The notes beneath the pieces are model-generated. The model saw nothing but the letters and a program-made list of their open reading frames with translations. It was not told the origin of the DNA and ran no database searches. 64,000 bases of DNA from Chlorobiaceae bacterium (GTDB taxonomy: Bacteria > Bacteroidota > Chlorobiia > Chlorobiales > Chlorobiaceae): the NCBI GenBank assembly GCA_013334335.1, contig JAAXXR010000003.1:1-64000 (forward strand). The letters run 5' to 3'. Below are positions 1-11,910 of this stretch, piece by piece. Every line of letters starts with the position of its first letter. Position 1 is the first letter of the stretch. A program made the position numbers and the translations under genes.

Positions 1-90
1 GGGGGGGGATATACAGAGGGGAAATAAAACAAAAGAATGAGAACAAAGGGGGGAGGCAGCCGAGCAGCCATGAGCAACATCCCGGGGGAA

Positions 91-1476
91 TCAGGTTGAC
101 GGTTGAGCGGGAGCTATCCTGCCAAGGGACTTTTCCAGTTCGACCGATGCCACCAGGTAGTCATAGACCGCCTGCAGGTAGTTGGTTTTCGCCGTGTTGA
201 GCTGCAGTTCCGCATCCGTCAGTTCGAGTCTCGAACCGATCCCCTCACGCATACGCAAGGTGGTGATCCGGTAGCTTCGCTCGGCAACGCTGATGGTTCT
301 CGATTGCACCTCGATGCGCTTCCGCGCTTCCAGCAGGTTCCAGAGCCGGATCTCGACATCGGCCCGCACCTTTTCCTTCAGCTCTTCAAGCCTTGTTCTG
401 GTCTGCATTCTGTTGATCTTGGACTGCTCGATCTTCGCGCTCGTCCCGAAACCCGAAAAAATCGGCACCGAAAGCTGCAACCCGACCGATGAGGTGGTCG
501 GCCACCCATTCACGTCAGGCGACTGGTCATCGTTAAACTGCGACTGCATCTGCATCTGGCCGAACGCGGACAGCGACGGCATGCCTTCGGAACGGACCGC
601 GGTGACCTTTTCATCCTCTGCCTCCAGCTGCAAGGTGAGACTCCTGACATCCGGTCGGTTCTTGAGCGCTTCGGCATAGGCGGTCGGCAGGTCGGCCGGA
701 ACCGGTCGGTCCTGATAGAGTAACCGGTCGGTAAGCTCAAGCTCGGTCTCCTGTTCGATGCCCATGACGCTCTTGAGTCTCGTCGACGCGGTCATCACGG
801 AACTCCTGGCCCTGATCAGGTCAGGCTTGAGGTTCTCGACGGAAAGGTAGGCCTTCAGGGTGTCGATGTCGGCCGCGACCCCCTGCCTGAACAGGGCGTT
901 CGTATCCCTTCTCGACTCGTCCCATCGGGCGATGCTCTGCTCGACCAGCACAAGCTTTTCCCTGGCGATCAGGGCATCGAAATAGGCTTTGCGGATATTG
1001 GCCTCGACATCGGCGCTCGACTGCCGGAACGACTCCTTGCTGATCTTCTTCACCAGCGAAGAGGCCCTGATGCCAGCGATGGCTGAAAGCTTGAAGATGT
1101 TCTGGTCGACCCTGAGGGTTCCGACGACCGAGTTGTCGCTGCCGATCCTGATCGGTCCCGAAATACCCGGGAAGGTGTTCTCAGGAAGGAAGAGCAGCGA
1201 CGGCTCGATCGTTCTGGTGTACGTGACACTCGACGTGACATGCGGCAGCACCTCGGCCCAAGACTCGCGGGCCTTCTGGCCGGCCATCCGCTGATCGAGC
1301 CTGGCGATCTCGAGTTCCCGGTTCCGCTTCATTCCTATGCCCACAGCATCCTCAATGCTGATAACGAGACGGGACGCCGGCTTGGGTGCAGGTTTATCCA
1401 CCGCCCAAACCGTCCCGATGGACGTCATGAAAAGCAGCATGAAAGCGGTAAACCTCGAAATGATGACGGAGTTCAT
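91..1476 (-). CDS. TolC-family outer membrane efflux channel
   Basis: Encodes a 461-residue outer membrane factor. Trimers of this family form a beta-barrel in the outer membrane continued by a periplasmic alpha-helical tunnel, and carry substrates of tripartite efflux pumps or type I secretion systems. The ATG at 1476 was chosen because it opens a signal peptide (hydrophobic core ISRFTAFMLLFMTSIGTVWA) and has AAGG 8 nt upstream; the frame is open to 1548 but that extension has no signal-like character. Two tandem TolC repeats are visible, roughly residues 30-230 and 250-450, with the typical second-repeat stretch SVPIFSGFGTSAKIEQSK. No adaptor or pump gene is inside the window, so the transported substrate cannot be inferred. 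The gene starts 68 nt after the stop of rarA, so they may share a transcript. Confidence 0.92.
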   Translation of the reverse strand: MNSVIISRFTAFMLLFMTSIGTVWAVDKPAPKPASRLVISIEDAVGIGMKRNRELEIARLDQRMAGQKARESWAEVLPHVTSSVTYTRTIEPSLLFLPENTFPGISGPIRIGSDNSVVGTLRVDQNIFKLSAIAGIRASSLVKKISKESFRQSSADVEANIRKAYFDALIAREKLVLVEQSIARWDESRRDTNALFRQGVAADIDTLKAYLSVENLKPDLIRARSSVMTASTRLKSVMGIEQETELELTDRLLYQDRPVPADLPTAYAEALKNRPDVRSLTLQLEAEDEKVTAVRSEGMPSLSAFGQMQMQSQFNDDQSPDVNGWPTTSSVGLQLSVPIFSGFGTSAKIEQSKINRMQTRTRLEELKEKVRADVEIRLWNLLEARKRIEVQSRTISVAERSYRITTLRMREGIGSRLELTDAELQLNTAKTNYLQAVYDYLVASVELEKSLGRIAPAQPST

Positions 1477-1544
1477 TTGAAAGACCTTGTTTAAGGGAGC
1501 AACCATTCTCCTGCAAATATAGCCCAACCGGCCCACTCGGCCAA

Positions 1545-2891
1545 TCACTCTTCGTAACGCCCTTTCCAGAGGGCCTCGAGCCGCTCCTTCAGATACTTTT
1601 CCCTTCCCTCCGCACCAGGCCGGTAATAAGCCTTCGGATCGATCTCGGCCGGAAAGTAGCGCTCCTGCACGAAATGGCCGGGATAGCTGTGCGGATAGCG
1701 ATAGCCGTCGCCATACCCGATCTGTTTCATGAAATCGGTCGGTGCGTTACGGAGGTAGAGCGGCACCACCAGTTGACCGGCGGCCTTTACGGCAGCCAAT
1801 GCCTCGCCCAGCGCGGCGTAACTTGCGTTCGACTTCGGACAACAGGCCAGGTAGGTGGCCCCCTGGGCCAGGTTGATGCGCGCTTCGGGCATGCCGATCA
1901 CTTCCACGGCATGGAACACCGACATGGCCAGCGTGATCGCATAGGGATCGGCGTTGCCGACATCCTCGCTGGCAAAAATCACCATGCGCCTGGCGATGAA
2001 CTTCGGTTCCTCCCCACCTTCGATCATCTTCGACATCCAGATGAGCGCCGCATCGGGATCAGAGCCTCGAAGCGACTTGATGAAGGCCGACACTGTATCG
2101 TAATGCGCTTCTCCCCCCTTGTCGTACTCCGGGGCGCGATGCTGGAGCGCCTGCTCGAAAAGCCGGCGATCAAGCCGGGCGCTGACGGCACCTCGAGGAA
2201 GGAGCGAGAGCGCCGCTTCGATGGCGTTCAGCGCCTTTCGGGCGTCCCCCCCCGCGTACTGCAGCAGAAACTCCATGTCAGCCACCTCGACGCCTGCCGC
2301 GGAGAGCGTCTCGTCGCTTCCGATGGCTCGTTCGACGACCCGGCGGACATCTTCATTCCCGAGCGGCTGGAGGATATACACCTGCATCCTGGAGAGCAGG
2401 GCACGGTTCACCTCGAACGAGGGATTCTCGGTCGTGGCACCAATGAGCACGATCAGCCCCTGCTCTATGGCATGCAGGAGGGTGTCCTGCTGCGCCTTGT
2501 TGAAGCGGTGGATCTCGTCGATGAAAAGCAGCGTCTGGCGCCCTTCGATCCGGCGGGTCTTCTCGGCCGTCTCGAGCACCCGGCGGACATCCTTCACGCC
2601 GGCATCGGTGGCCGAGAGCTGCTCGAACCGGTAGTTCAACGACCGGGCGCACACCTCGGCGAGCGTGGTCTTTCCCGAACCCGGAGGTCCCCAGAAGATC
2701 ATTGAGGGAACCCTTCCCTGCGCAAGATATCGCCTCACCGGCCCATCCGGGCCTGCCAGGTGCTCCTGGCCGAACAGTTCGTCGATATGCATCGGCCTGA
2801 CCCGCTCGGCAAGAGGCTGGAAGCCCCGGGCTCCTTTGTCGGCTCCGGAGCGACCGAAAAGATCCTGCTGTGAAAGATCGCCGGCCATCAT
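1545..2891 (-). CDS. rarA: Replication-associated recombination protein A (RarA/MgsA), AAA+ ATPase
   Basis: A 448-residue clamp-loader-like AAA+ ATPase of the RarA/MgsA/WRNIP1 family, which acts at stalled replication forks and interacts with single-strand binding protein. Walker A is GPPGSGKTT, Walker [17 protein letters not shown], and sensor 1 [12 protein letters not shown]. The C-terminal tetramerisation region holds the family stretch [20 protein letters not shown]. The start is ATG 2891, which overlaps the TGA of ribE as ATGA and indicates translational coupling; a second ATG follows immediately at 2888. The frame is open further upstream but that part overlaps ribE out of frame. The length is normal for the family and all catalytic motifs are intact. 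Confidence 0.96.
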
Positions 2892-6540: not shown

Positions 6541-9500
6541 CTATCCATTATCAACTCCCCCCTTGTCCCTGAACCGTTCCAGGCCTTCACGGATCCTCCG
6601 GTAGACCTCGCTCCAGTCGCCCACCCTACCCTGGCGATAGAGGCGGACCGTCGGATACCAGGGGCTCTCCTCCCGGTCGAGCAGCCATCGCCAGTCCGGG
6701 ATGAACGGCAGCATGATCCAGACCGGTTTGCCGAGCGCCGCCGCAAGGTGGGCTACGCTCGTGTCGATCGTGACGACCAGGTCCAGCAGGTCACACAGGG
6801 CTGCCGTATCGGTGAAGTCGACGAGCAACTCACCGAAATGGAGAACCCTTCCTGCCGGCGACAGTGCCTGCATATCGGAGGGGCGAACCTCTTTCTGGAG
6901 GCTGAAGTACTGGATGCCTTCAGGAAGGTGCCCCAGCAGCTGGTCGAGCGGCATGCTGCGGTTGTGGTCGTTCAGGTGTTCCGCCCGGCCGCTCCAGGCA
7001 ATGCCGACCCTCGGTTTTCGCTTCTGGCCGAGCCGACGGGCCCATGCTTCCCGCCGTTCGGAATTGCTGAAAAGGTACCGCTCCCCTGACGGTATGGTCT
7101 CAAGCCTGGTCCTGAAGGAAAGCGGTAAGCTCAGCAACGGGCAATGCAGGTCGAATGGTGGAATCGCCTCACCCCTGGCGATCACCAGGTCGGCACCGTC
7201 GACCTGCCTGAGCAGGTTGAGCAGCGGCGGATCGACCTCCAGGATCACCGTCGCCCCAAGCGCCTTGACCATCTTCACGTACCGGCAGAACTGCAGCGAA
7301 TCGCCCAGCCCCTGTTCGCTGTGCAGCAGGATGGTCCTGCCTTCGAGCGGTTCCTTGCCGAGCCAGAATGGCTGGGGGAAATTGCGCATCGGCTGCGGGG
7401 AGCTGTCACGCTTCCATCGCCATTCATAGAGTTCGAAACCCTGTTCGAGTTCGCCGAGGAGCAGCAGGTCCAGCGATTTGTTCCAGTAGACGTCCCAGTA
7501 GTCCGGTTTGATCGTAAGCGCTTTCTCGTAGCATTCGAACGCAATATCGAACCGTTTGAGCGCACGGAAGGTGATTGCCCGGTTGAAATGGGTCACGGCA
7601 AGCCCGGAATCGAGCGTGAGCGCCATCCCGTAGTTCTTCAGGGCCTCGTCGTAGCGCGCCAGTTCCTGCAGGGCGAGCCCCTGGTCCGAATAGTAACCGG
7701 CGTTGCCGGGATCGAGTTCGATCGCCTGGCCGATCAGTTCGATCGCAGTTTCAAAGTCGCGCATCCGGTAAGCGATGACTCCCAGCAGATGCAGGTTGTC
7801 CCCCGTCTGAGGCTGCTGTTCGATCAGCTCTTTCGCCCTGGTGTAGGACTCAAATGCCGGACCATGCATCATGAACTCACGCAGGACGTTGGCCCGGTTC
7901 AGGTGCGTGATGGCAAGGTCGGGATCGATTGACAGCGCCTTGTCGTAGCACTCCAGGGCCGCATCGAAGCGACGCAGGCCCTGCAGGGCGAACCCCCTGT
8001 CGGAAGAGTAGACGGCATGATACGGATTGATCGAGATTGCCCGGCCGATCAGGTCAGCCGCCCGTTCGAGGTTTTTCCTGCGATACTCGAGGAGGCCAAG
8101 CAGATGGAGCGAGTCGGCGTCATCCGGCCTGGTTTCAAGTATGGCGGCAGCCAAGGCGTCACTCCGCTCCGCCTCGACCTCCCGTTTCAGCAGCCTGAGT
8201 ACGTAGCCCCGGTTCAGCTGCGTGATGGCAAGGCCGGGATCGAACCGCAGGGCCGCTTCGTAGGATGCAAGCGCCTCCTCGTAACGCCGGAGCTCCTGGA
8301 GTGCAAGTCCCCGGTCCGAAAGGCACGGCGGACTGCCGGGGTCGAGCGCAAGGGAACGATCAAACAGGCTGAGGGCTTCCCGACAGCGCTTGCGTCGAAA
8401 CTCGATGGCCCCCAAGATATGCAGCGATTCGGGGCTTTCAGGTTGCGCTGCAAGCATCGCGGCTGCCAACCGGTCGCTCTCCAGGGCTGCAGCCGGGTTG
8501 CCGAGCGTCCTGAGGATATGGCCGCGGTTCAGCTGGGCGACCAACAGGAGCGGATCGATCGACAGGGCCCGGTCAAAGCTCATCAGGGCTTCATCGTAGC
8601 GTCGCAGCTCCTGCAACGCCAACCCGAGTTCGAGGTGCCATGACGGTTGTTCCGGCCTGATCGCCCCGGCCTGGCTGAAAAGCTCCACGGCTTTCGCCAG
8701 GTTCCCCTTCCGGCGCTCGAGCACGCCAAGCCGGTAGAGCGACTCGGCGTCCGTCGACTGGCCTCTGAGAAGAGTCTCGGCGATGCCGTAGCTATCTCCG
8801 GCTGCAGCGGCTCGGTTGAGTTCCGTCAGGACGTCGCCCCGGTTCAGGTGGGTAATCGCCAACCCGGGGTCGAGTGAAAGTGCCCGGTCGTAGTGCTCGA
8901 GCGCCTCTTCGAACCGACCGAGCAGCTGGAGGGCGTAGCCCCGGTCAGAGTGGTACGCCGCATGCCGGGGGGCGGCGGCAATGGCCTGGCCGATCAGATC
9001 GGCCGCGCCCGAGAAATCGCCCCGCTGGCAGGCAATGACGCCAAGCATGTGCAGGGCGTCCGTTTGCGCAGGTACGGCGGCAAGCAGTTCTTTGAACAAC
9101 CGTTCTGCAGCGTCGAAGTCACCCTGCCGGTGCAGCAGAAGCGCTTCCGGCAGGATCGCCTGGAAAGCATCCGGGCCTTGTTGACCCGGAGCAGCAGTGG
9201 CGATGGTCTGCGTGCCCGGCATCCGGCGAACCATACCGCAACGGTACTGGTAATCGAAGCCGGGATAGGCGGAAGGTAGGCTCACTGCCTCCGCCATGGG
9301 ACGGAACAGGGCCTGGACACCGCCAGCGAGGCCGAAGGCGCGGGCCGAGACGAAACCGGCATGACGCTCGTCAAGCGAGTAGGCTTCAACGGCGGACGCG
9401 AGCACCAGGAAGCTGGCCAGTTGCCGGATCGCAGCACCGAACCGGTCCCCAGCCGGCGACTGGCCGTAGCTACCGAAAAGCCCGGAGAGCGGCGTTGCCC

Positions 9501-10095
9501 CGGGATTCCGCCTGAGCCACTGCTGCACAAGGGCTTCGTCGTCGGAATCAAGCAGGGCGTCAGGAACGGTTCGCTGCAGCTCATTCCAGCGATCTGTTTG
9601 TCCCGGCCGCCCGGAACCCGACAAGCAGACGACCGGTCGTTTTTCAGGGATTTTCTCCAGCAGGTTCCTCAGCGCCTCGACCGCCTCGGGGGTCAACCGG
9701 AGATGCTCCTTCAGGAGCTGGTAATCGCCGGCGGGTGCACCGAATCCTCCATAAACCCAGACCGGCTCGCGATGAAACCCTTCCCGGGGATCGTACGAGG
9801 GTGCTGCGGCCATCGGGAAGTGAGGTTCGTCGATTTCAAAACGATGAGGACCGTGGCGCCACCAGGCAGGATAGATCTCGAGCCCTGCCGGAACCTGGCT
9901 GGCCGAGCTCACGTAGGGCTGGTCAACCAGGGTGAAATATCGATAAAAACCGCCGGAGGCATCCGGCCAGAAGGGATCGTCCCAGTCGACCAGCAACGCC
10001 CTGTTGAACTGAGAGGCCATCGTGACCGTCGAGGCAAGAGCCTGCATCCGGTCTCCGAACGCTTCGCAACCCTTGCCGATGAGGTAACGGTTCAT
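6541..10095 (-). CDS. Large fusion: NodZ-like fucosyltransferase region + TPR array + GT9/GT41-like domain
   Basis: An 1184-residue protein in three parts. Residues 1-310 resemble NodZ/GT23-type fucosyltransferases: an N-terminal FGDRMQALASTVTMASQF followed by RALLVDW, and a later SARAFGLAGGVQALF stretch. Residues about 320-900 are at least a dozen consecutive TPRs, recognisable from repeated blocks such as ALEHYDRALSLDPGLAITHL. Residues about 920-1184 form a glycosyltransferase B-fold of the GT9/TPR type, with LLHSEQGLGDSLQFCRY and the nucleotide-sugar site TIDTSVAHLAAALGKPVW. The start at ATG 10095 opens the NodZ-like segment; upstream codons look unrelated. There is no signal peptide, so it should act in the cytoplasm. 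It lies 96 nt downstream of a TpsB transporter on the same strand, which suggests that it glycosylates an exported adhesin. That role is inferred. Confidence 0.8.
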   Translation of the reverse strand: MNRYLIGKGCEAFGDRMQALASTVTMASQFNRALLVDWDDPFWPDASGGFYRYFTLVDQPYVSSASQVPAGLEIYPAWWRHGPHRFEIDEPHFPMAAAPSYDPREGFHREPVWVYGGFGAPAGDYQLLKEHLRLTPEAVEALRNLLEKIPEKRPVVCLSGSGRPGQTDRWNELQRTVPDALLDSDDEALVQQWLRRNPGATPLSGLFGSYGQSPAGDRFGAAIRQLASFLVLASAVEAYSLDERHAGFVSARAFGLAGGVQALFRPMAEAVSLPSAYPGFDYQYRCGMVRRMPGTQTIATAAPGQQGPDAFQAILPEALLLHRQGDFDAAERLFKELLAAVPAQTDALHMLGVIACQRGDFSGAADLIGQAIAAAPRHAAYHSDRGYALQLLGRFEEALEHYDRALSLDPGLAITHLNRGDVLTELNRAAAAGDSYGIAETLLRGQSTDAESLYRLGVLERRKGNLAKAVELFSQAGAIRPEQPSWHLELGLALQELRRYDEALMSFDRALSIDPLLLVAQLNRGHILRTLGNPAAALESDRLAAAMLAAQPESPESLHILGAIEFRRKRCREALSLFDRSLALDPGSPPCLSDRGLALQELRRYEEALASYEAALRFDPGLAITQLNRGYVLRLLKREVEAERSDALAAAILETRPDDADSLHLLGLLEYRRKNLERAADLIGRAISINPYHAVYSSDRGFALQGLRRFDAALECYDKALSIDPDLAITHLNRANVLREFMMHGPAFESYTRAKELIEQQPQTGDNLHLLGVIAYRMRDFETAIELIGQAIELDPGNAGYYSDQGLALQELARYDEALKNYGMALTLDSGLAVTHFNRAITFRALKRFDIAFECYEKALTIKPDYWDVYWNKSLDLLLLGELEQGFELYEWRWKRDSSPQPMRNFPQPFWLGKEPLEGRTILLHSEQGLGDSLQFCRYVKMVKALGATVILEVDPPLLNLLRQVDGADLVIARGEAIPPFDLHCPLLSLPLSFRTRLETIPSGERYLFSNSERREAWARRLGQKRKPRVGIAWSGRAEHLNDHNRSMPLDQLLGHLPEGIQYFSLQKEVRPSDMQALSPAGRVLHFGELLVDFTDTAALCDLLDLVVTIDTSVAHLAAALGKPVWIMLPFIPDWRWLLDREESPWYPTVRLYRQGRVGDWSEVYRRIREGLERFRDKGGVDNG

Positions 10096-10158
10096 GGTTG
10101 TAGTTGAGGATGAACCTGCCAGGTGAATCACACGAGCCGAACTGGAACACCTTGACGT

Positions 10159-10173
10159 TCCGGACGGTCCGGA
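10159..10173 (-). terminator. Small hairpin between tpsB and the glycosyltransferase gene
   Basis: TCCGGA repeats flank a 3-nt loop 18 nt after the tpsB stop. There is no T-tract. It could be a partial terminator or a processing site that lowers expression of the downstream gene relative to tpsB. Confidence 0.3.
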
Positions 10174-10191
10174 CAAACAGAAATTTGCGGC

Positions 10192-11910
10192 TTAATACCG
10201 GTATGCCGCCTGGAGCCAGAATCGCGACCGGTCAGCATGACCGTCATAGTTGTTTCCGCTGATACTGCTGCCGGGGTTGTCGCCGATCGTATGGGCCCAC
10301 ACGGACCTGAGCGTTACACGGCCCCGGTACGAATACGAGAGTCCTATCCCCGCACCCTGAAGCCAGTAGCTGTTCCTTTCGGTGGCCGTGCCGAGGATGG
10401 ACATGGTTCGGTCATGCTGGATGGTGATCCGGCCGGCATCGTAAAAACCGCTGATTTCCAGGTTGCCCCAAGACGAAGGAAACGGCAGGGTGTAGCGCAA
10501 ATCCGCATTGATCAGGTGCCCGTTATCGCCGGCCGCTTCACCCAGGGGATACGCACGGACACCCTCAGGGCCTCCAAGAGAAAACCTCTCGCTGCTGTCG
10601 AGGTTGCCAACGGAAAGCTGCGAACTCCAGTTGATCGCCAGGGTGGTGCGGTCGGCAATGTTCTGCATTCGCGCGATACCCAGGTTGATACGCTTGAATT
10701 CCCCCTCAGTCCTGTTTGCCTGCGCATCGGTCAACGCAGCCGGATTGCGATCATGCAGCACGCCCCGGGTTATGCTGAGGTTCCAGGTCGTAGCGGCGTC
10801 ACCAAACAGCTGGTCGAACCGGTCGCCGATCAACCCCAGAGTACCGTACTCGGCATGCTTGTCATGAATATCGAAAGGTCCCTGGTGGTCCACCATGGTT
10901 CTCGACCCGTAACTGAAAACAGCCGTAATGTTCGCATTCCGGCTTCTGTGCAGCGGATAACTCAAACCCGCTTCAACCCCGTTGCTGGAGCCTGAGTAGT
11001 CCAGCGAGGAAAATTCGCCGTCGGTCAGTTCATATGTCATGCCGGTATAGGACAACCTGGCCTTGAGCCCGTCGCACCAGAGGGGGACGACATACGAGGC
11101 GCGTCCCTGCACGAGCCCGTCACTTATGGTCAGCATCGTGCCAAGCTGGTCACCGATCCGGAGTGGATCATTCAGAAAAACCATCCCATTCCCACGCCAG
11201 CTGCCGGTATACGCATTACCCATATTGTCACTCGAGAGCGTGCCGCTGACCGGCGGGCCCTCCGATATGCCGATCCGAAGCATGCTGGTCCCTGTCTTGC
11301 TGCCGGGGCTTATCATTGCCGTCGCCCTGATACCCGGAAGGTCGTTCATCAGCAACAGCGAACGTTCCAGCCGCCGCTGGTTCAACGCGCCCTCGGCGCT
11401 CAAGGCAGCATCACCCATCCCTTGAAACTGCGAGGCACGCAGGCGGACCCTGCGGTCAGGCGAGTAGTTGATCTTCCCGTCTACCCGCCCCTGTTCGAGC
11501 CTGATTTCGACGACGCCACCGGAAACATCCTGTTCGGGCAGGTAAGCGCGAGAGAGCACCCAGCCCCGGTCCCTGATCCAGAACGATAGCTTCGAAACCA
11601 GCACCTTGAGCTCCCCCATCGTAAGGCTCTTGTTCACCGAATCCGAGACGAGGGACTGGAGCTCGGCTTCCGTCGCGATCCCTTCATAGCCGCTGAAGAC
11701 GAACCTGGACACCTTGACGACCATACCGGCACCGGGTTCCGGATGTTCAGAAACCACCGTTTCAGTCGGTCGCAAACCCTCGGGGAGTGGCCTCTTGCGC
11801 TCCTGTTGCTGAAGCAGGCTCCCTGCATCGGGAATCGGGGCAGCCTGGAGACTGCCGGAAAGCATGATAATGATGAGTCCTATAAAATACTGTCGGGGGG
11901 GCAGTCTCAT
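10192..11910 (-). CDS. Two-partner secretion outer membrane transporter, TpsB (ShlB/FhaC/HecB family)
   Basis: A 572-residue Omp85-superfamily transporter that exports a large TpsA exoprotein across the outer membrane. A signal peptide ends near LSGSLQA. It is followed by a plug/linker region, a POTRA domain at about residues 65-140 (VSRFVFSGYEG, then LSFWIRDRGWVLSRAYLP), a second POTRA-like segment to about 215, and a 16-strand barrel. The family L6 motif appears as GGPEGVRAYPLGEAAGDNG (usual VRGY/F, here VRAY). The last residue is an aromatic Tyr (AAYRY), as needed for barrel assembly. No TpsA gene lies upstream or downstream inside the window, which is unusual because tpsA and tpsB are normally adjacent. 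The next gene encodes a TPR glycosyltransferase. Confidence 0.93.
   Translation of the reverse strand: MRLPPRQYFIGLIIIMLSGSLQAAPIPDAGSLLQQQERKRPLPEGLRPTETVVSEHPEPGAGMVVKVSRFVFSGYEGIATEAELQSLVSDSVNKSLTMGELKVLVSKLSFWIRDRGWVLSRAYLPEQDVSGGVVEIRLEQGRVDGKINYSPDRRVRLRASQFQGMGDAALSAEGALNQRRLERSLLLMNDLPGIRATAMISPGSKTGTSMLRIGISEGPPVSGTLSSDNMGNAYTGSWRGNGMVFLNDPLRIGDQLGTMLTISDGLVQGRASYVVPLWCDGLKARLSYTGMTYELTDGEFSSLDYSGSSNGVEAGLSYPLHRSRNANITAVFSYGSRTMVDHQGPFDIHDKHAEYGTLGLIGDRFDQLFGDAATTWNLSITRGVLHDRNPAALTDAQANRTEGEFKRINLGIARMQNIADRTTLAINWSSQLSVGNLDSSERFSLGGPEGVRAYPLGEAAGDNGHLINADLRYTLPFPSSWGNLEISGFYDAGRITIQHDRTMSILGTATERNSYWLQGAGIGLSYSYRGRVTLRSVWAHTIGDNPGSSISGNNYDGHADRSRFWLQAAYRY

Follow-up and report, generated by a model that had tools for sequence, protein, structure and literature searches.

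A TpsB gene beside a TPR-GT9 glycosyltransferase gene in a Chlorobiaceae bacterium: a candidate three-partner secretion locus

Described systems and the layout of the locus

HMW1A-HMW1B-HMW1C of Haemophilus is a two-partner secretion (TPS) system in which the gene of a cytoplasmic glycosyltransferase (GT) lies just downstream of tpsB; HMW1C itself consists of a GT41 domain and an AAD domain, and it N-glycosylates NXS/T sites (PMC3983070). Caulobacter FlmG is a cytoplasmic protein with N-terminal TPRs and a C-terminal GT-B domain, whose TPR binds the exported substrate, and it acts on flagellin with pseudaminic acid (PMC7591256). The autotransporter heptosyltransferases TibC and AAH (BAHT), which have the GT9 fold, an N-terminal beta-barrel and a four-cysteine iron finger, act in the cytoplasm and glycosylate an adhesin that is secreted by the type V route (PMC4358343).

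The window, that is, the whole stretch of 64,000 nucleotides that was analysed, carries a TpsB gene followed on the same strand, after 96 bp, by the gene of a protein with TPRs and a glycosyltransferase domain (TPR-GT). This pair had been recognised in the initial annotation, and Pfam domains on 10192-11910 and 6541-10095 bear it out. The features are as follows, G019 being the genome of the closest relative:

10192..11910, minus strand: TpsB outer-membrane transporter (POTRA_2 and ShlB barrel), 572 aa; from Pfam, PDB relatives, the G019 ortholog and dN/dS
6541..10095, minus strand: TPR glycosyltransferase, 1184 aa; from the ORF and Pfam, with an ATG start at 10095 and an ortholog in G019
9190..10095, minus strand: N-terminal domain, aa 1-302, divergent NodZ/GT23-like; from the NodZ match and homology to L215, its full extent being putative
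7486..9165, minus strand: TPR array, about aa 311-870; TPR repeats span about aa 310-880 in the Pfam matches, with TPR_1 at E=2.5e-69
6544..7485, minus strand: GT9-fold glycosyltransferase domain, aa 871-1184; from PF01075, alignment, AlphaFold and Foldseek
91..1548, minus strand: tolC-like gene, the last before the contig end; from the ORF and synteny with G019, where tpsA follows tolC
1..90, no strand: contig end; the tolC stop is 90 bp away, and window position 1 is the end of contig C25; tpsA is expected beyond

The TpsB ORF is intact, and both elements of a two-partner secretion TpsB of the ShlB/FhaC type are present in it, namely POTRA_2 (PF08479, E=1e-13) and the ShlB beta-barrel (PF03865, E=9e-23). 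Its relatives of solved structure are CdiB and FhaC in the PDB comparison, and the nearest TpsB is encoded on contig G019:C21, with about 62-63% identity. For the second gene, the longest ORF (6541-10176) begins with TTG at 10176; however, the start that the 69% identical G019 ortholog shares is the ATG at 10095.

The explanation that is considered best, with a probability of roughly 0.55, is a three-partner secretion locus composed of TpsB, a GLUG-repeat TpsA encoded off the contig, and the TPR-GT9 protein, which would glycosylate TpsA in the cytoplasm; this explanation presumes that tpsA is present, and it likewise presumes what the enzyme modifies, with which sugar and by which linkage, and how adhesion is affected. 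The TPR-GT9 protein would use its TPR superhelix to bind TpsA in the cytoplasm and would attach single sugars to it, most likely on Ser/Thr, before TpsA undergoes Sec export and TpsB translocation. TpsB would then export TpsA as a giant GLUG-repeat surface protein, whose gene would lie just off the contig, after tolC. To our knowledge, TpsA glycosylation has been described only for GT41 enzymes of the HMW1C type, and no description of a TPR-GT9 partner of TpsA was found in the literature searched. If the proposal is true, such a partner would be a second, independent solution for TpsA glycosylation, with repeated occurrences in both green sulfur bacteria and Burkholderia, and protein glycosylation of giant adhesins would be extended to phototrophic bacteria.

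The missing tpsA gene and the contig end

No TPS domain (PF05860) was found in the window, as had been noted earlier for TpsA, or in the draft genome (2.18 Mb, 130 contigs, 99.6% complete), and the TpsA of G019, used as a protein query, had no match in the assembly. PF05860 detects TPS domains in 19 of the 61 genomes, which are exactly the 19 relatives carrying TpsB, and the present genome is the only one among the 61 with a TpsB but without a TPS domain. The initial annotation had counted such an absence against its own proposal of a glycosylated exoprotein system. The absence is real in the assembly as it stands, but its weight is reduced because the contig breaks at the syntenic position of tpsA.

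On contig G019:C21 the gene order is collinear with the window (ribD-ABC-TpsB-TPR/GT-tpx-ribE-mgsA-tolC) and is then followed by TpsA, about 690 bp downstream of tolC. The TpsA of G019 has at least 2128 aa, since it runs off its contig, and contains ESPR, TPS and Glug domains. As tpsA follows tolC in G019 and tolC is the last gene of the window, a gene encoded elsewhere in the genome, as first supposed for the adhesin, is less likely than one lying just past the contig end. The order of tpsB and the glycosyltransferase gene is conserved in this collinear block of G019, whereas in other Chlorobiaceae the ribD-ABC-tpx-ribE-mgsA-tolC block contains neither TpsB-GT nor TpsA, so that all of these were probably gained by insertion into the block.

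Contig edges often cut tpsA in draft genomes, seven other TPS hits lying 4-533 bp from an edge. Since the contig ends at the syntenic tpsA site and tpsA often breaks drafts, an assembly gap is favoured over true absence, and the tpsA of this genome is probably hidden in a gap just past tolC. To bridge the gap, a search was made for the methyltransferase gene usually found after tolC; the only copy is a diverged one, on a contig of 5 kb. This contig (G000:C6:1-5069, locus L131) has another ribE-tolC-methyltransferase block, diverged from that of the window (55-64% identity), and is probably a contaminant from another Chlorobiaceae.

It is unlikely, on the whole, that tpsA has truly been lost, so that TpsB and the glycosyltransferase are leftovers, or that TpsB exports a protein in which no TPS domain is recognisable while the glycosyltransferase acts on another exported protein. 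The completeness of the assembly in which neither the TPS domain nor the G019 protein finds a match speaks for such a loss; against it stand the break of the contig exactly at the syntenic site and the fact that no other relative has TpsB without TPS. Moreover, both genes are intact, and dN/dS against the G019 orthologs is 0.23 for TpsB, 0.21 for the glycosyltransferase and 0.19 for tolC (rough values, dS being near 1), that is, about the same for the pair as for tolC; this purifying selection supports a function of TpsB and the glycosyltransferase in the window.

Fold of the glycosyltransferase and contexts of its family

The protein had first been described as a TPR array with a GT9/GT41-like domain. 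The TPRs and the GT9 part of this description hold (fold and PF01075), no match to GT41 was obtained, and an N-terminal domain of about 300 aa had been overlooked. The match to Glyco_transf_9 (PF01075) scores 21.8-23 bits against a cut-off of 22, and a profile search of the GT-domain sequence against the PDB returned nothing, so that the GT9 assignment rests on the fold together with PF01075. AlphaFold models the last 314 aa with a pLDDT of 85, and the closest folds to this model in Foldseek are GT9 enzymes, first 3tov (E 1.9e-8), then WaaF, WaaC and TibC. Identity with GT41/HMW1C was rejected, there being no GT41 Pfam match and neither HMW1C nor OGT among the best 50 fold matches, where GT9 appears instead. 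As modelled, then, the domain is of GT9 fold (heptosyltransferase/TibC-like) and not GT41/HMW1C. The motifs EQGxGD and DTxxxH are invariant in an alignment of 14 GT-domain homologs, and by motif the Asp of EQGxGD may be equated with the catalytic base of TibC/WaaC, which in TibC is Asp-110 (PMC4358343).

Compared with the described systems, the window enzyme differs from HMW1C in having a GT9 fold and a TPR array, and from the BAHT in having TPRs and lacking the N-terminal beta-barrel; the four-cysteine iron finger of TibC/AAH was not found in the aligned GT domain, which has three cysteines only and no insertion. The layout of FlmG, a single soluble protein in which TPRs precede a GT-B domain, is present according to Pfam, AlphaFold and Foldseek, but the window gene adjoins tpsB and encodes an extra N-terminal domain. 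By analogy, the best reading is that the enzyme would work like HMW1C or FlmG without being an HMW1C.

Linkage of this glycosyltransferase family to tps genes recurs beyond the window. G019 has a second such locus on contig G019:C16, in the order TpsB-TpsA-GT on the same strand, and in G006 TpsB and TpsA flank the glycosyltransferase gene, which is on the opposite strand. Of the roughly 27 GT loci in Chlorobiaceae, three adjoin tps genes, where about 0.17 would be expected within 3 kb (P about 7e-4), an approximate statistic in which GT clusters were counted by hand and one pair comes from the same genome. Outside Chlorobiaceae, tps genes occur within 10 kb at 3 of the 78 best homolog loci, including those of P. 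kururiensis and Burkholderia sp. Bp8963. In these two, as well as in B. stagnalis and B. arboris, three tandem TPR-GTs stand directly upstream of TpsA, which in B. arboris has 4277 aa; a tandem triplet followed by a giant TPS-domain protein forms a conserved Burkholderia/Paraburkholderia locus (L155, L162, L218, L219). N-sequons of the HMW1C type (NXS/T) are not enriched in the linked TpsAs, at 0.9-1.3 times expectation, the same as in unlinked TpsAs.

Glycosylation of TpsA by a third partner is preferred because of this linkage in G019 (two loci), G006 and Burkholderiaceae, which is what stands of the earlier proposal of an HMW-like system; membership of the HMW1C family, with TPRs in place of AAD, does not stand. 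It is further supported by a family member on the flagellin side and by the fold match to TibC, a protein heptosyltransferase. It is weakened by the lack of TpsA in the assembly, by the position of most homologs off tps loci, and by the equally good match to WaaC/WaaF, as GT9 enzymes also build LPS. The flagellin-side member (L221:9347-10873) is encoded on a plasmid of the alphaproteobacterium Rhodovastum, close to flagellin, flaF and flbT, a context that resembles that of FlmG (PMC7591256).

Most TPR-GT homologs stand away from tps genes, in the wide set and in Chlorobiaceae alike, and many of those in Chlorobiaceae form tandem arrays, while one lies beside a type I secretion operon. With most members lacking an obvious linked substrate, the family taken together probably acts on several exported proteins. 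The same distribution speaks for the view that TpsB and the TPR-GT stand side by side with no shared function, the enzyme modifying another surface protein (type I secreted or pilus) or several proteins; such a coincidence is about as improbable as the loss of tpsA, given that same-strand linkage recurs in G019 and Burkholderiaceae, with the opposite orientation in G006. A lipopolysaccharide heptosyltransferase-like role, for which the GT9 fold, PF01075 and the places of WaaF and WaaC among the best structural matches could be cited, is very improbable in view of the large TPR array, the lack of recognised LPS genes in the neighbourhood and the fact that the family is linked to TpsA and to flagellin. 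In the arrays of other Chlorobiaceae (L134, 16 kb, on G018:C63; L212 on G013:C8) as many as eight TPR-GT genes stand in tandem, and the same group also has an ORF of 1790 aa in which several GT stretches are fused.

The N-terminal domain

The N-terminal domain of the window protein resembles the N-lobe of NodZ/GT23 fucosyltransferases. Its match to NodZ is weak (E=0.056); aa 3-77 are homologous (E=5e-11) to a protein of the NodZ family, 333 aa long, in L215, only about 77 aa aligning significantly. In contrast to NodZ/GT23 enzymes, the HxR motif is not conserved, and this canonical catalytic motif was not recognisable in the domain. The predicted structure, made from two sequences, has a pLDDT of 31.

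Within the TPR-GT family the domain is common to the window protein and its G019 ortholog only, and relatives were found neither in plasmids and viral contigs nor, beyond G019, in 86 Chlorobiaceae; the one relative among 395 genomes of the phylum is a NodZ-type protein. Since HxR is unrecognisable and the two orthologs differ from each other here, the domain may be inactive. It is quite doubtful, more so than the loss of tpsA, that the protein is a two-headed glycosyltransferase in which NodZ-like and GT9 domains around a TPR superhelix would build a short glycan on a TPS adhesin, forming a class of third partner distinct from HMW1C. A Chlorobium TPR-GT (L142:8909-10927) carries a sulfotransferase-like N-terminal piece (Sulfotransfer_3, E=0.004), which suggests, from sequence, that members of the family swap their N-terminal domains.
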